Made by a program: the position numbers and the translations under genes. A stretch of DNA of 64,000 bases from Maylandia zebra (Eukaryota > Chordata > Actinopteri > Cichliformes > Cichlidae): the NCBI RefSeq assembly GCF_041146795.1, contig NC_135176.1:14318286-14382285 (forward strand), given 5' to 3'. Under the pieces are notes generated by a model. That model was not told where the DNA came from and did no database searches. It saw nothing but the letters and a program-made list of their open reading frames with translations. Positions 589-61,114 of this stretch are shown piece by piece. Numbering within the stretch: the stretch's first letter is position 1; the number at the start of each line of letters is the position of its first letter.

Positions 589-1791
589 TTAATCTGAGTC
601 CTCGGCGAAGAGGTGGGAACGGAAGTCCTCCATCAAGGTGATGACCTCATCAACAACTTCAATCTTCTTCTTGACCGGGAAACATCTGGGCATGAGCTTT
701 CGTCCATACTATAAGATTTTAAAGGTGGAGCCTTAACCATTAGTAGGATATAACTTGCTATGAGATTTTTTTTCTAAGCTAACTAAAATTGATTTGTTGG
801 TAGAGCATTGAGAGGCTAAGTGTCTTTATTTCTCAAAGCTAGAGGTAACATTTCTCAATTGTAAGAAGAGCATTCTGTGTGTTTGTGTTGAGCTGCATTT
901 TTACAGATGTTCCCCCTAACATCACACAACAACCACTTATATATGTGGCACACTGACTTAATGCAAGTACAGAATGTATTTAATGTTGTATGAATCTATG
1001 TTAAATGACTCACTGTTTTCTTGGCTTCATCCAGCGATCTCTGAATGCACTCCTTCATCCTTTCTCTGTGTTGCTCCATCTCCAGTTTAAGTTTTTCCTC
1101 TCGCTGTCTGGAGTGTGTAACAACATGTAATAAGAGAGGTAGTTATACAGTATACTGGATTTTTGTCAATGCACCAAAGACAGGAATTAAAATATAAAAA
1201 GAAACAAAACCCATTTTTATCTTTCTGGATTGTTAAATAAAAACTGGAGATTAAGGAGGTGGATAAAATTTACTATTCACAAGTTAGCCCTGTTTACTAA
1301 ACATCTGCGTTCAGTGAGACAAACCTGCTCCTCTTCTCGCTGTCCTTGATGTTCCTCAGTGTTTTCAGCACGTCCTCTGGGATGCTCTCAACTTGCTGGA
1401 ACAGCAGAGATATATGGTGCTCAAAACCAGTCAGCATCTCCAAAGTGGTGAGTTGGGTCGGCCGTTCATCGACGCATGAGGAATACACCTTTGCCACCTT
1501 AATCGCCAAATCATTCAACATAATATCCTGTATGTAAGACAGTTGTAGAAGATGAGAGAAAAAAAGGTTCCCCAAGGCTGCTTTGATTTCAAATAGGATG
1601 ATATATTAAAAAAGTTGAGCATAAAGTACACTCTGCATCATTACCTGGTCCTCTGTCTTTATTGATTCATGGAGATGAACACTCTTTTTAAGCATGGCCA
1701 TTCTCTTCTTTTTGATGTCAACTCTCTCCTTCATATCTTCTACATGCATGTTTAGCTGCTCTTCTTCCTCTTTCCTTGACACAAAGAAGAG

Positions 1792-1873
<82 letters not shown>

Positions 1874-4800
1874 CTTGGTGCTTTCCTTTTGCTTGGTTAG
1901 CAGACATAGCAGCAGTCACATAAATTGTAAGTTCAAAAAGCAACCAACCGCTGTCACGAGAGATCTGCAAGATACTGTGAGGACTTCTTCACAAAAGCCA
2001 AAATTCATGCTGTGTACACCTGGCTTTGAAAGAACTGTTAGAAAAACCGCGATTCTCACATTTTCTTTATGGTGACCTCGAAAGTGTGCTCCATTTTCTT
2101 ATCCATCCTGGTGATGTTGTGAATCAGAGACAGGTTCTGGTCAGTCAGCTCTGACAGCAGGACGATTACCTCCAGGGGATCGAAGTTATATAGTTCCAGC
2201 TTGTCCTGCAGGGAAAGGTAAGTGAGCACTGTAAATAAAGCCTCCTGATGAAAATGGCTGTTGCTTTAATGATCTTTGGTTTTAGACTCACTAACTCTGA
2301 CCTCATAGATTGTGTTGTTTCCATTCAGCTGGGAATTCTTCACCCTGAAATGAAATAGATTTTAAGATCATAGTTTTAAAAAGTTTTATTCTGCTGGAAC
2401 TCCTACCACCTTCTTTGCTGTTGTTGCATTGCTCCCTGTTGCTCTGATAACATCACAGATTAAATTATCCAACAAAACTAAAACTAATCAAACTAACTAA
2501 TCAAATTAAATGACCTGAGAATTGATAGAAAAGAACCAACTGGTGATAGTGTGTGTGTGCTTTCTTACACGGCATCACTGTGGTTTGAGAACAGTGTAGA
2601 CTCACTGGTGGGAGGCAGCACTCTATCTGGAGTGGAATCCAGATCTTTCTCCAAGCCTGTGTTAAAGTTCATACTTACAGATCAGATGTATGTGAGCTTC
2701 TATGCCAGCAGTTATAATGCATTCAATAGTAACTCAGACACGGTTTATTTTTTAATAAAAGGCTGGTCTCCTATTTAAGAAACCCACACCAGTCTGACCC
2801 GTATCCATTTAATGTTGTTTTCCTACCATCTGGTCTGTCTGGCAAGCCTTTGGTTGTTAAAGTCGCTGCTTTCTGGGCTTCCTGCCACTCGGGAGGAGAA
2901 AGCTTGAACAGAACTCTCCTGTACCTCTTATATTCATTCAGAACCTTCTCAATCTTGGCAACTTCACTATAAAGAAGAAAGCTTTAGCATGCTACTTATT
3001 CCAAATTTGTCACTTTCTTTTACAGATCTATGCATTAAACCGATGCGTACCGCATTTAAGTGACATGCATGATATTCCTATTGTTAGCCATACCTTTTTA
3101 ATATTGCTGTTTCATCGGTGACCTTCTCAATCTTATCATTCATTTCCTGTATGGAGCTACTTGAGTTTTTCAACCTGCTAAAAAAGCAGTTTTACAGTTA
3201 TTACAACAGAAAATTATATTTAAATCAACCCATCCCCTATTCAAAACAATATTTATATCAAAATATCCCATTTTGATATGGGGAATTTTCTGATGCTTAC
3301 AGATTTTGGGCATCCATAACTTTCTTCTCGACAGAGGTGAGGAATTCTTTCAAAAAGCAATCTTCAAATGCCTTGAAATCTTCAAGTCTTTGTACTACAT
3401 ACTTCTGTGCAGTCATGGCCTTTGCGGTCGTCTTAATCTTTGAACTGATCACCTTATCATCAAACTGGATTATTTAACAACATAAGATTAACATACTGTA
3501 AATTTGTCATAATTAAAAGACAGAAAAGCTTTGATGACTGTTTTCTAACAGAAAACACATTTATTAAAGAAATAATGAAATATGCTAGACTTTATGTGCA
3601 TACAATTGAAAAAATAGTTCCAGATTTTAGGAAATATAAATCAAGGAAGAGATAAGAGCCAATACGTCCTTCTTTTTTAACAAACAAAATTTGATTTTAT
3701 TTCCCCCGCTTCCAGTCTCTCCAGGCTGTAGCGAAATCCTAAGTAAGGCTAATCCCAAACATCTTTTCATTCAAATTAAAAGTTTGTCAGATTAAAATCT
3801 CTATAGCTCCATTTAAGAGCAGGATATTTGTACTTTTGCTCACATGAATTTTGAAATAATCTCGACCTCAGGATTAGTCCTTACAATTGAGGGATTCTTC
3901 TTGGGTCTAGAAAAACAAGCTAAACATTTTAATAGAAGTAGAACAATGTGCAAAAGTTTTGAGCCACCCCTCAAACAGAAATTAGTTTCAATGATTTTTG
4001 AAATATGCAACCATAGTTGTACAATTATAAGAACTAATGTAAGAGAAAATAATAGTGTCTGTATCTCTATCTAATTTTGATGGGCTTATGATGGACCTCT
4101 AAAGTTTTCTTTTCTTTTGTTTAATGCAACTGCTGATTTTGCAAAAACTATGCCTTAGACCCTTTAATTACATTACCTTTAGCTGCGCATTCTTCTCTGA
4201 CATGAGGATCCAGTTCTCACTGCTGTCTCTCTTAGAAATGTCTAAGCAAAGAGAATAAGTCATGTCAACACTAGAGAGCAATCCTTCAAACCAAATGTAA
4301 CCTTTAAAACACTGCATTCTGCTCTTTCTTCACCCACCTTGATTAACCTCAGACGTTGACATGCCTGTGAGGTCTTGAGTAGGGAGAGATGTGTTTTTCC
4401 TCTTCTCCCTTTCCTCCTGCTCTTTCAACAGCTGACCTATCACCTCATTTGTGGACATGCTTTGTCTGTCCTGCACTGAAGACAGTCAAAACAAACCCTA
4501 AAAATAGTTTTCAATACAGTGCTTTGAAACAGTTTTTGTGTATGTGTGTGTGTATTTTTCACACTTGCATGTTTCACATCGTTAAAGAAATGCTGCTGAT
4601 CAAAAGGAACTCAAAGGCTCGTCTCAAATTTACCAAAAAGCATTCCCCAAGAATTTTGTGAAAATATTCTGTTGACTGATGAGACAAATTAAAAGGTTTT
4701 GGAAGGTCTAATTCTTGTTACACCTGGGATAAAAACAAAAACATCATACCAACAGCCAAACATGGTGCTGGTTAAGTGTGATGGTCTGGGGAAGAAGCAT

Positions 4801-36877: not shown

Positions 36878-39800
36878 CTGTAACAGTTGGTGAAATGTTA
36901 GTATTTGACCACTAGGCGGAGCTCTTGTAATGATAATGTAACTAACTCATTTTATTTTGTATGTTTTATTTTTGTGTTGAGCATGTTAACATTTTCCTTT
37001 TTTGCCTACCGGATTGGTGTACAGTTAATTTGATACATGGAAAATAGCCGGTTAATTTTGTAAATATAAGGTAAGGGCAGAGGTCACTTCCTGTTTTGGA
37101 AAAAAGTTAAATGACTTGACAAACAATTTTGAGCGAGTTTACAAGAAGTGGAAATACCACATAAACTTATTTAAAAGAATGGTGAAGAGTAAAGACATTG
37201 AGTTAATACCTGAAGCTGTAAGTGTTATAGACACTAGTATGACTGACATCTGTAACATTCATGATGAGATCAGAAAAATACAAAGTCCTGATATTGAAAT
37301 GCGCAGAAGATGTGATGTGTGCATGGCTATCAGTGAAACTGCCAGAGCAAAGGCTCGGTGCCTTTTAGAAGAAGATGGTGATCCAAATAGTATACCCTGG
37401 CCTGATTCAGAGTCCGTGTATGACAGCAGTTCATCCAGTGCTTCTTCAAGGATCACATATAAGTCAAGGTCTATCTCTGGGATGTCAAAGCAATCATATC
37501 TGGTCACACTACAACAAAGACAAGAAGCTGCAGCTGATGTAGCAGCTACAGAAGAAGTCATTAAAATAATGAAAACACAGCATCAGTGTGAGGAAGAAAT
37601 CAGAGAACTTGAAGTTGAGGATGCAAGGAAAAGAGCTCAATTTCTAACTGAGAGCACCTCAATAAAGACAAGGTTAGATGAAAAGAGAAAGGAAGTGGAA
37701 CTTTTGAGAGAATTGCAAAAGCGTAATGCAGCACAAGCAAGATTGAAAGTGTATGCTGAAAGTGTGAATAGTGAGGATGAAGACAAATCTCCTGTTCATT
37801 CCCAAGTAAGACAAGATAGTTCCGTCCCGCAACCAAGCTTTCCAAATGTGAACTCGAAACCATTCATCCCATCTCAAGTTAGAGCTCCGCAACAAATTGC
37901 ACCTCTCCGAGCCTCTGTCCCTCAAACAGCAATTCGTAGTGCAAATGAAACGCCCTCCACTGATCTTGTAAGGATGCTCGCTGAAGCTATCACTGCAAAC
38001 AGAATCCCAATCCCAGAGCCTCCAGTCTTCACAGGTGATCCACTGCAGTATAATGACTGGAAGTTGTCTTTTCAAACATTAGTTGACCGCAAGAATCTGC
38101 CAATTCAAGAAAAGCTATTCTTCCTGAGAAAGTATGTTGGAGGTTCAGCGAAGAAGGCTATTGAAGGACATTTTCTGGTTGGAACAGACACCGCTTATCA
38201 TGCTGCCTGGGAGATACTCAACGACAGGTTTGGAGATCCCTTTGTGATAGGCAAATCATATCGTGACAAGATTCAGTCATGGCCAAAAATTAACAACAAA
38301 GACACTAAAGATCTACGTGAGTTTGCAGATTTTCTAAGCAGTGTTGAGTCAGCCATACCTTATGTTCAAGGTTTACAAGTTTTGCATGACTGCGTGGAAA
38401 ATCAGAGGATAGCTGCAAAGCTGCCTGACTGGCTAAGTGCACGGTGGAACAGAACGGTGACAGAGTTTCAAGATGAACACAGAATGTTCCCAGATTTTAG
38501 TCATTTTGTCAAATTCCTGAATAAAGAAGCAAGAATTGCATGTAATCCTATCACTTCTCTGCCTGCAATAAAGCCGACTGAACAAGACAAGCATGCATTC
38601 AAAGACAAGCCCAAAAGAAACTACATGCTGAATGCTAAGTCACTTAGTACAAGCTCTAGTGAAAGGACAAATGTCACATGTCTCTTTTGTAAGAAACCTG
38701 GTCACACGCTTCAGAAATGTCGCAAGATAATGGACAAGTCAGTTGAAGAGAGAGTAAAGTTTGTGCAGTCTGAAAAACTGTGCTTTGGTTGCCTCAAGAC
38801 TGGTCATAACTCTAAGAACTGCACTTCCAGAAGTGTGTGTGACAAATGCCAAAAGCCTCACCCAACTTGTCTACATCAAGACAGAGAGAAAAGAGACAAG
38901 GAACAAAGAAAGAATAGCCAACAACAATTTAAGGCTAACCAGGAAACAGAGGTTTCTGAAGTACAAGAGCAAGTATCTAACCAAGTTACATCCAACAGAG
39001 TTGTGCAACAAAAGTCAAAAGGTTGTACTTCCTCAGTTGTCCCAGTTTATGTATCCACTGTGGATGAACCAGAGAATGAAAAGTTGGTGTATGTTTTGCT
39101 CGATACTCAAAGTGACACCACTTTCATCTTGAAAGACACAGCTCAGTCGCTCAACGCCATGTTAGAGCCAGTTAAACTCAAGATTTCCACTATAACGTCC
39201 AAAACAAAAGTTGTTTCAAGCAGCAAGTTAAAGGACTTACAAGTAAGAGGCATTTACTCTGAAACGAGAATCAAACTACCAACAAGCTATACCAGAGACT
39301 ACATTCCTGCTAACAGATCACATATTCCCACAAACAAAACAGCAGAGAACTGGTCACATTTGAAACATTTATCAAAGGAGATGGCTCCCAAGCTTGATTG
39401 TGAAGTTGGACTACTGATCGGATATAACTGTCCTCAAGCATTGCTCCCTCTAGCGGTGGTCAGTGGTGATCGAGACCAGCCATTTGCACAGAAATCTCTG
39501 CTTGGCTGGAGCATCATTGGCTACAGTGACTCTGAAGGTGATTGTGAAGATGAAATAGGAGTAAGCCATCGTGTTATTGTTAGACAAGTCTTGCCAGCTG
39601 TAGGACCAGCTCACAAGCTCAAAACGGAAGTTCACTTTGTAAGCAGAAACAAAGTCAAAGAAATACTTACTCCAGCCGAGATACTTAATGTGCTAGAGAT
39701 GGACTTTGTTGAAAAAAGTGTTGAAGAAGAGTCAATGTCACAAGAAGATCTACTGTTTCTAGCCAAAGTAAAAGAAGGCATAAAACAAAGGCAAGATGGC

Positions 39801-41920
39801 CACTTTGAAATGCCACTACCCTTCAGACAAGAAAGACCTGACTTGCCAAACAACAAACTTTGTGCAGAACACAGACTGAAGTGTTTAGAAAGGCGTCTCA
39901 GAAAAGACGAGCGCTACTACAAGGACTACGTGACTTTCATGCAAGACATCATAAAGAGAGGTGACGCAGAGAAAGTGCCAGAGGCTGAGCTAAATAATCA
40001 ACCAGCATGGTACATTCCTCACCATGGCGTCTACCATCCGCAGAAGCCAAATAAGATCCGCGTCGTCTTTGATTGCTCTGCAAGGTTCCAGAATACATCG
40101 CTCAACGAGCATCTCCTGTCAGGACCTGACCTCACAAATACTCTTGTTGGAGTTCTGTGTCGTTTCAGGAAAGGACGTGTAGCTGTCATGTGTGACGTGG
40201 AGCGCATGTTTCACCAGTTTCATGTTGCCCCAAAAGATCAAGATTACCTCCGATTCCTATGGTGGGAGGATGGTAACATGGAAAAGTCCACATCAGTGTT
40301 TCGCATGAGAGTCCACTTGTTTGGTGCAGCATCTTCACCAGGATGCGCAAACTTTGGATTCAAGCATGTCGCTGCGCAAGGTGAAAATAAGTTCAGTGAA
40401 GCCACGGTGAAGTTCATGCAACGCAACTTCTACGTGGACGACGGTTTGGTGAGTGTGGATTCAGTGCAAGAAGCTATTCAACTTGTAAAGGAAGCTAGAG
40501 AACTGTGTGCCACCGGTAAGCTGCACCTGCACAAGTTCATTAGCAACAGCAAGGAAGTGATTGCTGCTATCCCAAAGGAAGAATGTGTAGCAGGAGCAAC
40601 TGATCTGGATCTGGCACTAGGAGAGCCAAAGATAGAAAGAGCCTTAGGGGTCCAATGGTGTGTAAGCTCAGACACCTTTCAATTCAGGGTGATTGTAAAG
40701 AATAACCCCTTCACTAGAAGAGGAGTGCTCTCGACAGTGGCCTCAATATTCGACCCACTTGGATTCGTCGCTCCGTTCATTTTAGTTGGTAAGAAACTCC
40801 TCCAAAGAATGTGTCAGGAAAAGCTGGACTGGGACGAGCCGCTTCCAGAAGATCTCAAGCCTCAATGGGAAGCTTGGCTCAGAGACCTCCAGAACCTGTC
40901 CTCCATAAAGATATCACGTTGTTATGTCCCATCAACATCTGACCAAGTGAAGCAGTATGAGTTACACAGCTTTTCTGATGCCAGTGTAACCGGTTATGGT
41001 GTGTGTTCATACTTGAGAACCGTGACCAAGTTTGGAGAAGTACAGTGCACTCTTGTGATGGGTAAAGCAAGAGTCGCTCCTACTAAAGTGACAACCATCC
41101 CAAGATTGGAGCTTTCTGCGGCTGTAGTAGCTACGAGAGCAGCTGACTTTCTAAAGAGAGAATTGGAGATCCAAAATATTCAGGTGTACTACTGGACTGA
41201 TTCCAAAGTTGTCCTTGGTTATATTAACAACGACGCAAGGCGCTTTCATGTATTCGTTGCTAACAGAATACAGAGAATCAGATCAAGTACAGAACCAAGT
41301 CAATGGCGATATGTTGCCTCTGAACAAAATCCTGCAGATCACGCATCACGTGGAGTCATGACAAAAGAACTAGTACAGTCCAACTGGTTCACAGGACCAA
41401 GTTTTTTATGGCAAAAGGAACTACCACAAGAAGATGCTAAAGTGAAAGAGATCAGTATCGAAGATCCAGAACTCAAAGTCACAACAGTATTCGCAGTTAA
41501 GGCAAAAGAAGAGAAATCCATTTTAGAACGACTGGAAAAATTCTCAGATTGGACGAGAGTTGTGAAAGCAATAGCAAGATTAAGACGACGTGTAAAGTAT
41601 GCAAAGAACTCAAAGTAAATGTCCAATGAAAGTACTACGTTGGAAGAAAGGAAAGAAGCCGAGGAGTTCATCATACAGACAGTTCAACAAGAAGCATTTG
41701 GAAAGGAAATTAAGATCATAAAGGATAAGGAGGAAGTCAGACCATCTCACTCAAAGCTACTTCAGTTAAGTCCATTCCTTGATCAACACAATATCTTGAG
41801 GGTAGGAGGAAGACTTACAAAAGCATCAATCCATCCCAACATCAAACACCCAGCCATTCTGCCAAAGAAACAAATCCAGCTGTACTGGAAATGTTTTCAG
41901 AGGTCCAAACTCTTTGGCTT
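36878..41920 (+). mobile_element. BEL/Pao LTR retrotransposon fossil, 3'-truncated
   Basis: Fossil of a Pao-type LTR retrotransposon. A possible 5' LTR or leader lies at about 36878-37110. One long frame (to 41618) carries, in order, a gag-like region with coiled coil and a DUF1759-type segment (about 38000-38560), two zinc knuckles (about 38680-38880), a retroviral-type protease region with LLDTQSDT (about 39090), a reverse transcriptase (about 39990-40480, with the FYVDDG catalytic box), and an RNase H region (about 40940-41350). The start of an integrase-linked region follows in a separate short frame to about 41870. Most of the integrase and the 3' LTR are not seen, so the element is broken; I count about one or two breaks. 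The long open frame suggests a fairly recent arrival. It stands between lipocalin copies 1 and 2. Confidence 0.9.
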
Positions 41921-52923: not shown

Positions 52924-54526
52924 GGGGCAAAAAAGTATTTAGTCAGCCACCGATTGTGCAAGTTCCCCCACTTAAAATGATGACAGAGGTCAGTAATTTG
53001 CACCAGAGGTACACTTCAACTGTGAGAGACAGAATGTGAAAAAAAAAAATCCATGAATCCACATGGTAGGATTTGTCAAGAATTTATTCGTAAATCAGGG
53101 TGGAAAATAAGTATTTGGTCAATAACAAAAATACAACTCAATACTTTGTAACATAACCTTTGTTGGCAATAACAGAGGTCAAACGTTTACTATAGGTCTT
53201 TACCAGGTTTGCACACACAGTAGCTGGTATTTTGGCCCACTCCTCCATGCAGATCTTCTCGAGAGCAGTGATGTTTTGGGGCTGTCGCCGAGCAACACGG
53301 ACTTTCAACTCCCGCCACAGATTTTCTATGGGGTTGAGGTCTGGAGACTGGCTAGGCCACTCCAGGACTTTCAAATGCTTCTTACGGAGCCACTCCTTTG
53401 TTGCCCGGGTGGTGTGTTTTGGATCATTGTCATGTTGGAAGACCCAGCCTCGTTTCATCTTCAAAGTTCTCACTGATGGAAGGAGGTTTTGGCTCAAAAT
53501 CTCACGATACATGGCCCCATTCATTCTGTCCTTAACATGGATCAGTCGTCCTGTCCCCTTGGCAGAAAAACAGCCCCATAGCATGATGTTTCCACCCCCA
53601 TGCTTCACAGTAGGTATGGTGTTCTTGGGATGCAACTCAGTATTCTTCGTCCTCCAAACACGACGAGTTGAGTTTATACCAAAAAGTTCTACTTTGGTTT
53701 CATCTGACCACATGACATTCTCCCAATCCTCTGCTGTATCATCCATGTGCTCTCTGGCAAACTTCAGACGGGCCTGGACATGCACTGGCTTCAGCAGCGG
53801 AACACGTCTGGCACTGCGGGATTTGATTCCCTGCCGTTGTAGTGTGTTACTGATGGTGACCTTTGTTACTTTGGTCCCAGCTCTCTGCAGGTCATTCACC
53901 AGGTCCCCCCGTGTGGTTCTGGGATCTTTGCTCACCGTTCTCATGATCATTTTGACCCCACGGGATGAGATCTTGCGTGGAGCCCCAGCTCGAGGGAGAT
54001 TATCAGTGGTCTTGTATGTCTTCCATTTTCTGATGATTGCTCCCACAGTTGATTTTTTCACACCAAGCTCTGCTTGCCTATTGTAGATTCACTCTTCCCA
54101 GTCTGGTGCAGGTCTACAATACTTTTCCTGGTGTCCTTCGAAAGCTCTTTGGTCTTGGCCATGGCGGAGTTTGGAGTCTGACTGTTTGAGGCTGTGGACA
54201 GGTGTCTTTTATACAGATGATGAGTTCAAACAGGTGCCATTCATACAGGTAACGAGTGGGGGACAGAAAAGCTTCTTACAGAAGACGTTACAGGTCTGTG
54301 AGAGCCAGAGATTTTCCTTGTTTGAGGTGACCAAATACTTATTTTCCACCCTGATTTACGAATAAATTCTTTACAAATCCTACCATGTGGATTCATGGAT
54401 TTTTTTTCACATTCTGTCTCTCACAGTTGAAGTGTACCTCTGGTGCAAATTACTGACCTCTGTCATCATTTTAAGTGGGGGAACTTGCACAATCGGTGGC
54501 TGACTAAATACTTTTTTGCCCCACTG
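52920..54526 (-). mobile_element. Nearly intact Tc1-like transposon with about 200-bp inverted repeats
   Basis: Terminal repeats lie at 52920-53119 and 54328-54526. They start CAGTGGGGCAAAAAAGTATT and differ by a length change in an A-run and very few substitutions. The right side is followed by TA; on the left the TA is masked by the CA tract. The transposase gene lies on the minus strand (listed next). The near-identical repeats and almost whole frame mark a recent insertion. Confidence 0.93.
53138..54162 (-). pseudogene. Tc1-like transposase with one frameshift
   Basis: DD34E transposase that cuts and pastes at TA sites. The start is the ATG at 54162-54160 (MAKTKELSKDTRKSIVDLHQ). A 2-base gain near 54068-54072 (an extra AG after the CAG of IGKQ) shifts the frame in the N-terminal DNA-binding domain. 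From 54061 on the frame is open for 307 aa. It keeps [32 protein letters not shown] and [11 protein letters not shown], so all three catalytic acidic residues are in place, and ends GYVTKY. Full length would be about 341 aa, as usual for the family. The copy is not functional as it stands. Confidence 0.93.
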
Positions 54527-57497: not shown

Positions 57498-57765
57498 GAG
57501 AATAACGGCCGTTACTTTTTTCAGTAACTAGTAATCTGATTAATTACTGTTTCTATATTTCTATTGTTACATGGCTATTACTAAGAAGAAAATGCGGTGT
57601 GGACTCATTAATATTTTTCAACACACAGATGGTTGAATCTGTCTTCAGTTTACTGGGAGTTGGAGCCGGGGGGCAATCGTACAAGTGCTGCTTAGGTGGA
57701 TTCACCTCTGTTTGCACCATTTAGTTATGAGCTGTTGCATCTGTGGATGCCAAAGAGAAAACTTC
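57498..57765. mobile_element. hAT-type element fragment with an embedded repeat
   Basis: GTGATGAGAATAACGGCCGTTACTTTTTTCAGTAAC resembles in two halves the ends of hAT elements such as element C. It runs into a repeat (57599-57765) that recurs inverted within the Tc1 copy at 61310-61635. Confidence 0.5.
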
Positions 57766-58164
57766 CCACTGGATACTGAGCTGACTATACCTGTCTTCCG
57801 TGTGTAGCACAAGCGTTTACTAGTGTAAGGCTGTAGAATTTCAATTTACAAAGTCAGTTACCAAAACTGTTAATACTTCCATGAACCATTGAGCAAGGCA
57901 TATTACTTGATAGATGCTATTAGGAATGCTTTCAAAAGGCATCAACAGCACAGATACAGTAGATATCATTCACAGAACAATGTTTTCAAGCAGCATGTAA
58001 ACATTTTTATTTCTGCTGTTAGATTGTTCTAATTTGACATTTTTACATGTTTTAAATGAGACAAAATTACAGGTTCAGACAACAGATTTTTTGGTTAATG
58101 CAATTTTTTATTTTTATGGGTAAGATGTTATAATACCCTGGTTCACTCTGTGACTTTGTCTCCT
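57766..58164. other. Downstream flank of the 58.5 kb minus-strand gene
   Basis: AT-rich. AAATAAAAA on the minus strand near 58106 could end that gene's transcript. Nothing else recognised. Confidence 0.3.
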
Positions 58165-58395
58165 ATAAATCTTCTTTAATTCAGTTCAATTCAATTCAAC
58201 AGCATTTACATACAAATGAATTGAACTGAACTGAATTAAAGAAAAAACCCAACAATCCCCTATGAGCAAGCACTTGGCGACAGTGGGGAGGAAAAACTAC
58301 CTTTAAAAAGGTAGAAACCTCCGGCAGAACCAGGCTCAGGGAGGGGCGGCCATCTGCCGCGACCGGTTGGGAGGGGTGGAGCCGATGACAAATGT
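58165..58395 (+). repeat. Teleost dispersed repeat, partial
   Basis: TTCAGTTCAATTCAATTCAA, CCCCTATGAGCAAGCACTT, GGCGACAGTGGGGAGGAAAA, AACCTCCGGCAGAACCAGG and CCGCGACCGGTTGGG: a well-known high-copy fish repeat, also seen degraded at 29035-29330. Confidence 0.75.
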
Positions 58396-58513
58396 ATACA
58401 CAACTAAATATTAAAGCAAATATGCTTTAAAATTGATGTTTAGGGAGTTGAAGTAACTGTTAATATTTAGTTGTATATAACTTTGATTTTATAGGAGACA
58501 GAGCTGAAGTCAC

Positions 58514-59911
58514 TTAAGTGAACAGTCTCAGAAACCAGTTGCGCTTCTTTTTCTTTTTTGGCTTTTCTCTCTGCATGTTGTCATCTCGGGCCTCTGGATT
58601 TTCTGGTTTGGTAGTACTGGCCTCCTCTTTTTCTTGCTTATTCTCCTGGAGTGTCTCGACTTGGGCTGGAGAATTTTCTGCTTCAGTAACGCTGGTCTCT
58701 TTTTGATCTATGGTCTCTTTTTTGGCTGGAGAATGATCCTGATTGCCAACGTTGGACTCGGTCTCTTCCTTCTTTCTTGTCTCTTGCAGAGACCGCAACG
58801 ACTCCTGAAGAATGATCTTTTCATCTTCTGTTTGCTTGAGTTGTTTGCGGATTGTTGTGTTCTCCTGGTTTTTCCTCTCTACAATCTCCAGGTAGAAAGC
58901 TCTGGTTTTTTCCAGCTCTTCTTTTACGTTTTGGACCTCCAAATTATTTGCCTCACAAACAGCCTCACTGAGGCAGAGTTTGACTATGAGCTCAGCGAAC
59001 TCACAGGGGGCTCTTTCTTCCTGTTCTTTACGTTTTGCAACTTCCTCTTCTAGGTTTTTCTGTGTTTTGAGGAGCTGCTCGCGGAGTTGTTGGATCTCTT
59101 CCTGCTGTTTTTTACATTGGACCTCCAACTCAGCTTCCCGAACAGTTTTCACCTCTGTAGAGTCTGTGTGTGGAGCTTCTGTAGTTTGTGTTGAAGCGTC
59201 CACACTCAGCTCTGCAGCTGTGACAGCTGTGTTGCTGTCTTGAACAGGAGCCTCATGCACATCAGGGGTGAGATTCTCCTCGGGTCTGCTTCTGCGAGCC
59301 TGTTCCAGTTGTTTTTGGAGCTCAAGAATGGTTTTCTCAGCATTTCCTCTGCAGCACTGTAGCTTTAGGCGAAGCCAATCATTTTGGGTTTTAGCCGCAG
59401 AGGCTTTGTGGTTCGCTGCTGTCATATTGTAGAGATTGGTTTTACTCATGTGCTGAGCCTCCTGCAGGTGAAATCTCAGTGCAGCCATTTCATCGGTCTC
59501 ACTATATGGACATTTGCCATCATTTGGCATTAAGTGAGGATTAGGCTGTGGTTGAGATGGTCCATCATTGGTTCTAAAGTCAGGCTGATGATGCACAGGC
59601 CCTCGGTTCGGTAAAAACGGTGGCTTGTACCAATGCTGCCCAGGCCCATTATTGGGGTTAAAGTGGGGATTGGGCTGATGTGGCCCATGCCCTCGATTGG
59701 GTCCAGGGTTTCTGGCTCTGGGGTTTGGGTTTGCATTTCTTTGCTTTTTATTCTTATTTTCACCCTTTGGTTTGGCAGATGAAGTCACCTCATTTGGTGC
59801 CCGGTTTTTCCCTCTTTGCTTTGGGTTTGGCTGCTTCGCTTTTGTGTTAGGGCGAACAGCGGCCGATGAGGTTCCTTCCTGGGGATCAAGGTTTTGCTGC
59901 ATACTCTGCAT
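58514..59911 (-). CDS. Unrecognised intronless coiled-coil protein with polybasic C-terminus
   Basis: One uninterrupted frame gives 465 aa from the ATG at 59911-59909 (context AGAAGAATGC); the frame stays open about 10-20 codons further up but offers no ATG before a stop. I do not recognise the protein. Residues 1-130 are basic and rich in Pro, Asn, Gly and His, with loose repeats of the PNPH/PNxG/NDG type. About 135-210 is helical, with ILELQKQLEQARR. Coiled coils follow at about 255-305 (QQEEIQQLREQLLKTQKNLE) and 325-390. About 390-450 is acidic, rich in Glu, Lys, Thr and Ser. The end is KPKKKKKRNWFLRLFT, a polybasic stretch with an aromatic tip that may bind membrane or nucleic acid. There is no zinc finger, transmembrane helix or enzyme motif. 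It stands alone among transposons and lipocalin relics; a retrocopy, a young lineage gene or a domesticated element part are all possible. Confidence 0.7.
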   Translation of the reverse strand: MQSMQQNLDPQEGTSSAAVRPNTKAKQPNPKQRGKNRAPNEVTSSAKPKGENKNKKQRNANPNPRARNPGPNRGHGPHQPNPHFNPNNGPGQHWYKPPFLPNRGPVHHQPDFRTNDGPSQPQPNPHLMPNDGKCPYSETDEMAALRFHLQEAQHMSKTNLYNMTAANHKASAAKTQNDWLRLKLQCCRGNAEKTILELQKQLEQARRSRPEENLTPDVHEAPVQDSNTAVTAAELSVDASTQTTEAPHTDSTEVKTVREAELEVQCKKQQEEIQQLREQLLKTQKNLEEEVAKRKEQEERAPCEFAELIVKLCLSEAVCEANNLEVQNVKEELEKTRAFYLEIVERKNQENTTIRKQLKQTEDEKIILQESLRSLQETRKKEETESNVGNQDHSPAKKETIDQKETSVTEAENSPAQVETLQENKQEKEEASTTKPENPEARDDNMQREKPKKKKKRNWFLRLFT

Positions 59912-60087
59912 TCTTCTTGTCTTTGCTCTTACAATGTACAATGAAGATTTTTTTCTACTTGATCAGGGTTTGGACTTGTGTTCGTTGCATACACTGAACG
60001 TTTCAAATCGTTTTCCTAAAGGTTGGCTCGTGGTGTGTTCCTAAAGAGTCGCACAGTTCTGAGACATACTGAGAGCACGCTGCGGTC

Positions 60088-60119
60088 CTATTTAAGGACT
60101 TTTGAGATGATGTCACGTG
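60088..60119 (-). promoter_or_regulatory. TATA-like box and E-box upstream of the intronless gene
   Basis: On the minus strand TTAAATAG lies at 60095-60088, about 180 bases before the start codon, and the palindromic E-box CACGTG lies at 60119-60114, some 20 bases further up. The spacing suits a focused promoter. Use is inferred. Confidence 0.5.
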
Positions 60120-61114
60120 CTCCTTTGGTCTGTTTCCTTTGATCTGATAGAGCAAATTGAGTGTGATGTCATTAACTTAGCAGAGAATCTTGTTTTTCTT
60201 TGAAATAGAATTCTACCAAACTTAAATTAAAAACTTTAATTTTGTACGAGATGTTAAATTCCCAATCTAAAGGCCAAATCTACCCAAGATCTTTAGGAGA
60301 AAATTACACAAATAGCTCAGAAGCTTCAATAAATGTTTCTGCATCAACATGTTTTCCATATACATCTTTAAAAATATTTTCTATTCGCCTAAACAAATTT
60401 GAAAAGAGTCTTTGTCATATTAATTTCTGTCCTAATGGAAAAAGGAACGATTTTCAAAGCTTCAAGTTTAAAAGAAAATCATTTTATTTAACACTATCAA
60501 GTTGCAGATTTGCTATATAAATTGCAAGTCTGAAATAGGTGAGTTTTAAGGGGCATTCACTCAGGACAAAATAAATTATTTGCTTTCTGTGTCAGACTTG
60601 CAAACTTATAAATACTGCAGGGATGCGTGCATGAGTTAATGCTGTAGAGGAGACAATAATCAGGCAACAAACTGCTGCCATAGCCGCTCCTTAAATATCT
60701 GGTCTTGACTAAGCTTAAAATATGAGTGCTGAAAACTCCTCTGATGCTATCCAGTGGTATGTTCAGTGCACTTCACTATTCCTGTTAATAGAACATCTGA
60801 AAAAGAAAGAAGTAAAAAGTCATGCTGTCATAGTAAAAGAAGTCCTTCTTAAACTCAGAAAAATCTGCATTTGAACCACATAACAAAAATATTTTAAAGA
60901 TCTGGCCTCAGATTTATTATTTTAGTGTTTAGAAAGCCCTTCTACACATATCTGAGCAGCTTAGTAATTTTCTTTTTAGTTTCAGGAAAAAATGGTGCTC
61001 CCAACTAAGCACAGCGGGGTAAAATAAGCCGAATAACACGCTGTATTGTGGGCTGGTTACGCTGTCAACAGGTAAGCATTTTTCCAGTGATATGGGTGAA
61101 GAAAGAAACATATT
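60120..61114. other. Intergenic DNA
   Basis: AT-rich; no family recognised in the short frames, and no repeat named. Confidence 0.35.

Follow-up and report, generated by a model that had tools for sequence, protein, structure and literature searches.

A large multicopy family of single-exon genes in Maylandia zebra, with coding tandem arrays and an isolated intact member

The window analysed here is a stretch of 64,000 nucleotides of the Maylandia zebra genome (C10:14318286-14382285). On its minus strand, at 58514..59911, lies an unbroken frame of 465 codons (465 aa) that runs in a single exon from an ATG at 59911 to a TAA at 58514-58516, exactly as an earlier note on this DNA had drawn it. 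Other stretches of the window match the Pfam models of V-ATPase (1.3e-07), DHHC (2.5e-10) and WH2 (E 0.0013, below cut-off), and the neighbouring genes are presumably WASF, ATP6V1A and ZDHHC23; a search of the whole window with Rfam gave no match. Lipocalin-like copies, which the note had placed around the gene, lie on both sides of it (34.5-36.2, 50.5-51.9 and 62.85-62.98 kb), and the match of a further piece, at 56.72-56.91 kb, is confined to the 3' side of the first copy. We take these copies to be lipocalin-like from the letters of their exons; neither Pfam (two of these stretches searched) nor the solved-structure search returned a lipocalin. The surrounding transposons, also claimed in the note, are Tc1 and Pao elements. 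At 37116-41618 a 1500-codon frame of a Pao-type retroelement scores above cut-off for Peptidase_A17 and DUF1759, and an open Tc1-like transposase frame of 307 codons at 53141-54061 lies between arms that are 99-100% complementary; this Tc1-like copy is perhaps young. A candidate element ending in a 68-base inverted pair around the 465-codon frame was rejected, as this inverted pair is formed by two Tc1-like pieces.

The open stretch around the frame measures 482 codons, the second longest in the window (behind the Pao element frame), and the longest open stretch in 64-kb sequences simulated 100 times with a second-order Markov model was 239 codons, with a mean of 169. The position-base information of the frame is 0.045 bits, against at most 0.0086 in 200 background stretches (overlapping masked stretches of 1398 bases, not proven to be non-coding), so that both its length and its codon periodicity exceed background. 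Taken in four 100-codon blocks, which cover all but the last 66 codons, the frame is equalled by 11, 6, 0 and 5 of 506 background blocks, respectively. The ATG has the favourable context reported for it, with A at -3, and a search with simple donor and acceptor patterns found no splice sites inside the frame. By these measures of the sequence alone, 58514..59911 is a real intronless coding gene.

The predicted protein has the layout of basic head, coil and polybasic tip that had been described for it. Its head carries a Pro/Asn/Gly/His-rich repeat (59516..59698, minus strand; best offset against shuffles p 0.004) in which N-x-G recurs at residues 72, 87, 102, 115 and 130, at spacings of 15, 15, 13 and 15. 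A linker, VDASTQTT (residues 237-244; 59180..59203, minus strand), precedes a heptad region at residues 253-385 (58757..59155, minus strand) that is clearest at 253-301 and 344-385, and the protein ends with KKKKKRNWFLRLFT (residues 452-465; 58517..58558, minus strand). Several coiled coils had been proposed, and heptad periodicity is supported over residues 253-385, where the mean score is matched by 1 of 400 shuffles and the best window by 22 of 400; at residues 141-210 the same region test gives no significant result (matched by 48 and 154 of 400 shuffles). The single-window scan is insufficient by itself, since p <0.05 is reached in 6 of its 62 windows (35 residues each), including one in the head, which is about what chance and overlap could give. 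A supposed repeat in the acidic tail was dropped, as 16% of shuffles reach the same score.

The earlier note read this gene as one of unknown family, at a kind of place where lineage-specific genes arise. Our analysis changes this reading, and the gene is not a lone one of its locus: a search of the 962-Mb genome of the same fish returns 91 matches on 17 contigs. This count, which comes from one search of one genome, is a lower bound at E up to 0.001, and it is a count of matches rather than of copies, as broken copies yield several matches each. Thirty-five of the matches are single-exon frames without stops, full or nearly full in length and at least 512 codons long, on contigs C17, C18 and C12 (34 span at least residues 23-457, and one spans residues 135-457 in a 527-codon frame), and there are ten further stop-free matches at 55.8-61.9 Mb of C3, whose open frames are 276 to 495 codons long. 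The 28 loci that were fetched contain 27 ATG frames with a match to the window protein; overlapping loci contribute some of these frames more than once. With these 35 frames and the C3 set among the 91 matches, homology places the window gene in a large multicopy family of single-exon genes. In a midpoint-rooted tree of 20 of the frames, in which C6 is a long row, the window and C6 copies stand on one side and the other 18 frames on the other, and within the latter the C3 group is set apart from a group from C1, C11, C12, C17 and C18.

Part of the family is arranged in tandem. Between 23,265,023 and 23,326,441 on C17 there are 15 matches from this set of 35 at steps of 4,287-4,290 bases, each in a 527-codon open frame, and other neighbours on this contig are about 3.68 kb and about 4.7 kb apart. 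Two neighbouring units that were read through (C17:23293500-23302000) repeat with a period of 4,290 bases, share 99.95% identity across 4,211 bases and each carry a 516-aa frame, so the array has a frame in every tandem unit as far as the 15 matches and these two units go. The window copy itself is not part of any array. Among coding macrosatellites, those of primates are the most familiar; the human D4Z4/DUX4 and RS447/USP17 macrosatellites have tandem units of a few kb with an intron-free frame in each. The C17 array is like these (human side as general background; compare PMC3018141) in having 15 units, each about 4.29 kb long and with an open frame, but the fish protein is unrelated to theirs in Pfam searches, and the fish family has many dispersed copies besides its arrays.

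No fitting family was found in Pfam for the window protein and four further members. The matches there, at E 0.1 to 0.58 for pieces and 0.033 to 0.78 for the members, fall well short of the cut-off and were put down to chance, as was the one match (E 0.41) in a profile search of solved structures, none of which fits. The description of the window protein as belonging to no known family thus holds for the libraries searched (Pfam and solved structures). A viral or prokaryotic origin was also considered and rejected: 10 pattern matches in viral contigs and 76 in genome contigs yielded none that was confirmed, phages searched for relatives gave none, PHROG gave one match at E 0.42, and NCBIfam gave E 0.076 at best. 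Among the papers listed in searches of the open-licence literature, none, judged by its title and the first lines of its abstract, deals with this gene family.

Eleven aligned members share a T-x-T-x-E-A-x-H-x-D linker, in which T241, T243, E245, A246, H248 and D250 are among the invariant residues, and I273, L276, L280 and L287, which lie at heptad-like steps, are nearly invariant in the family. In the window protein the linker is also a candidate motif for the dynein light chain LC8. It has TQT, which is expected by chance about 0.2 times in this protein (hand arithmetic), with Asp at -4, Val at -5 and no proline in the eight motif residues ahead of the anchor. According to the portion of PMC6607443 consulted, LC8 favours at -4 a residue that can form a hydrogen bond, in many cases Asp, and at -3 a larger residue with a positive charge, and many peptides with TQT fail to bind. 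The window protein thus resembles known LC8-binding coiled-coil scaffolds in its TQT, its Asp and its lack of nearby proline, and differs from them in having Ala, not a positive residue, at -3. It differs as well in that only 6 of the 20 members (the window copy, C6 and the four C3 frames) have TQT, while the remaining 14 have TPT; a C22 copy has TQT as well. The same six frames have the NWxxRLF end, which is absent from the other 14 (one of these is cut short), so that neither LC8 binding nor the tip would be family-wide.

The window copy is intact, and its four nearest copies all have stops or frame shifts. The C20 copy has two TGA and three TAA codons in its match and the C9 copy one TGA and one TAA in its main match; of the two C6 copies, the one at 11.57 Mb has its later part in frame and its head in a different frame, and the one at 11.64 Mb has stops. 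The C20 copy is 92% alike over 1,909 aligned bases, up to about 440 bases above the TATA-like box, and 1746 of 1819 bases are alike in a closer alignment. On the gene strand, where the ATG is at 1590 and the stop ends at 2987, homology extends over 962-2802 in the C20 copy, 852-3097 and 3362-3571 in the C6 copy at 11.57 Mb, 1463-2525 and 2797-3809 in the C9 copy, and 1799-3809 in the second C6 copy; it thus takes in promoter and flanks, and its ends differ from copy to copy. Downstream of the gene is a piece of a Tc1-like element (57605..57759), of which 57692-57759 is common to the C9 and second C6 copies; their homology runs to window position 57692, inside this piece, and is followed there by Tc1-like sequence. 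Homology through the promoter and through a Tc1 piece common to two sisters argues for spread by DNA duplication, and the shared flanks and Tc1 piece are, as far as the alignments go, the pattern that DNA duplication with flanking insertion gives.

The same homology, reaching as it does beyond any transcript, disfavours retrocopying among the sisters. That the gene is a retrocopy of a spliced parent, the alternative by which the earlier note thought its own reading might fall, would fit the lack of introns, and such an origin is possible for the family taken as a whole; in sea bass, 1,585 single-exon genes (8.3% of genes) derive from spliced parents (PMC8207432, in the portion consulted). Against it, the first 1,014 bases past the stop contain no run of seven or more A, no stretch longer than 9 bases is common to the flanks searched, the promoter and downstream flank are common to sister copies, and no exon-by-exon parent is evident by eye among the 91 matches; poly(A), target-site duplication and transcript-limited homology, the usual marks of a retrocopy, thus all fail to appear, and we regard this origin as highly improbable. 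The gene and the teleost single-exon genes treated in that portion of PMC8207432 both have one coding exon in an intron-rich genome, but here the spread among sisters is by DNA duplication.

A candidate core promoter at 60087..60119 (minus strand) consists of CACGTGACATCA at 60108-60119 and TTAAATAGG at 60087-60095, and a second TGACATCA lies at 60164-60171 on the same strand. The TATA-like box and E-box reported here are by themselves weak signals, as TTAAATA has 37 copies and CACGTG 8 sites in the window, but the pairing of TAAATAGG with a CRE-like site no more than 60 bases upstream occurs once in the whole window, at this gene. A CRE-like octamer stands 21-35 bases ahead of TAAATAGG in 15 of 20 members examined (one with TCG for TCA), in the forms TGACATCA, TGATGTCA and, in one member each, TGACGTCA and TGATGTCG. 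Because most of these 15 members are closely related to each other, the pairing is independently supported by the window, C1, C11, C18 and the C12/C17 group. TAAATAGG is missing from five members, namely C6 and the four C3 frames; in three of these C3 copies (L013, L014 and L027) TGATGTCA occurs two or three times upstream of the ATG, in 26-base steps.

Could the window copy be recently dead or dying, so that only the arrays matter? Its four nearest copies are all broken, a repeat and Tc1 pieces crowd it, and an AATAAA is found as near as 401 bases past the stop. With C6 and C9 as outgroups, changes could be polarised over 1,040 coding and 562 upstream columns. Since the split from C20, the window branch has acquired 7 synonymous and 9 non-synonymous changes and no stop (0.44 of neutral expectation), and the broken C20 branch 4 synonymous and 10 non-synonymous changes and one stop (0.85 of neutral expectation), with 11 and 13 upstream changes, respectively. 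The one-sided P for constraint on the window branch is 0.084, with small numbers; the direction of the counts, small as they are, fits constraint. The frame has nevertheless stayed intact through its 16 coding changes, with 11 upstream, and the chance of this would be 2% at a neutral divergence of 2.5% and 21% at 1% (indel rate assumed). On balance we consider a dying window copy unlikely.

Among 17 family pairs, which are not independent of each other and two of which gave no computable value, the 11 close ones (dS <0.1) have dN/dS of 0.31 to 1.63, so many copies may be barely constrained. In three deep comparisons with the C3 branch dN/dS is 0.53-0.55 at dS of 0.46-0.52, which suggests that the frames have been kept under selection, at least partly; for the window copy against that of locus L009 it is 0.25, where dS, at 2.9, is saturated. 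Over these pairs the family appears to retain its frames and to change fast. The close pairs with dN/dS around 1 would also suit a selfish or mobile element with a protein that promotes the element's own spread, or an amplified satellite in which a frame has stayed open by chance, as would the matches on 17 contigs, some of them mixed with transposon pieces, and the ends at L009 614 and 3645 that are shared in several comparisons. C17-type copies are flanked on both sides by stretches of a similar repeat (L009 near 560-613 and 3646-3720; 472-551 and 3739-3821 are 80% alike), which is absent at that border in C12 copies. The shared ends, however, abut what we take to be a different repeat on the C17 side, and copies of the window branch differ in where homology ends. 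Moreover, Pfam finds no transposase, gag or other mobile-element domain in the window protein and the four further members, and a two-unit stretch that was examined has no other ATG frame longer than 108 codons. A selfish or mobile nature of the family therefore seems distinctly improbable.

The reading that we prefer, and think probable, is that of a single-exon family spread at the DNA level, with macrosatellite-like arrays and mostly its own CRE and TATA promoters, in which the window copy is old, isolated and intact and the protein works as a scaffold. The protein would pair through its heptad region (253-385); the T-x-T-x-E-A-x-H-x-D linker would dock a partner, LC8 in the TQT-keeping branches; and the basic repeat head and polybasic tip would act by binding acidic surfaces, for example RNA, chromatin or membrane. 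Germ-line promoters with CRE and TATA elements are familiar, and the CRE and TATA promoter here might drive expression in the germ line. We infer that the protein functions as a scaffold in dimeric form, perhaps in the germ line. It is possible, and we suggest it only tentatively, that this is an undescribed, fast-evolving fish family of germ-line single-exon scaffold genes, in part scattered and in part amplified into coding macrosatellites comparable to the primate DUX4 and USP17 arrays, possibly through genetic conflict, and that the window copy is a preserved early branch of it. Zebrafish orphan and teleost-specific genes, of which a high share was made by duplication, are similar in having no known domain and few exons, but they have mean lengths of 131 and 168 aa against the 465 aa here (PMC3599513, in the portion consulted). 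Fifteen near-identical coding units, other arrays and an old intact relative would allow growth, homogenising and decay of the family to be followed, and they raise the question of what keeps stops out of the frames of so rapidly changing a protein.

The 3' flank of the window gene has two further features. A palindromic stretch of 97 bases after the stop (58389..58485, minus strand) is predicted to fold well as RNA; the fold of the 134 nt at 58380-58513 has a z of -5.1, and none of 200 shuffles is as good. A gapped inverted copy of the 3' end of the gene is also present (58141-58171 against 58485-58523, on the opposite strand), with a score that 1 of 500 shuffles equals.
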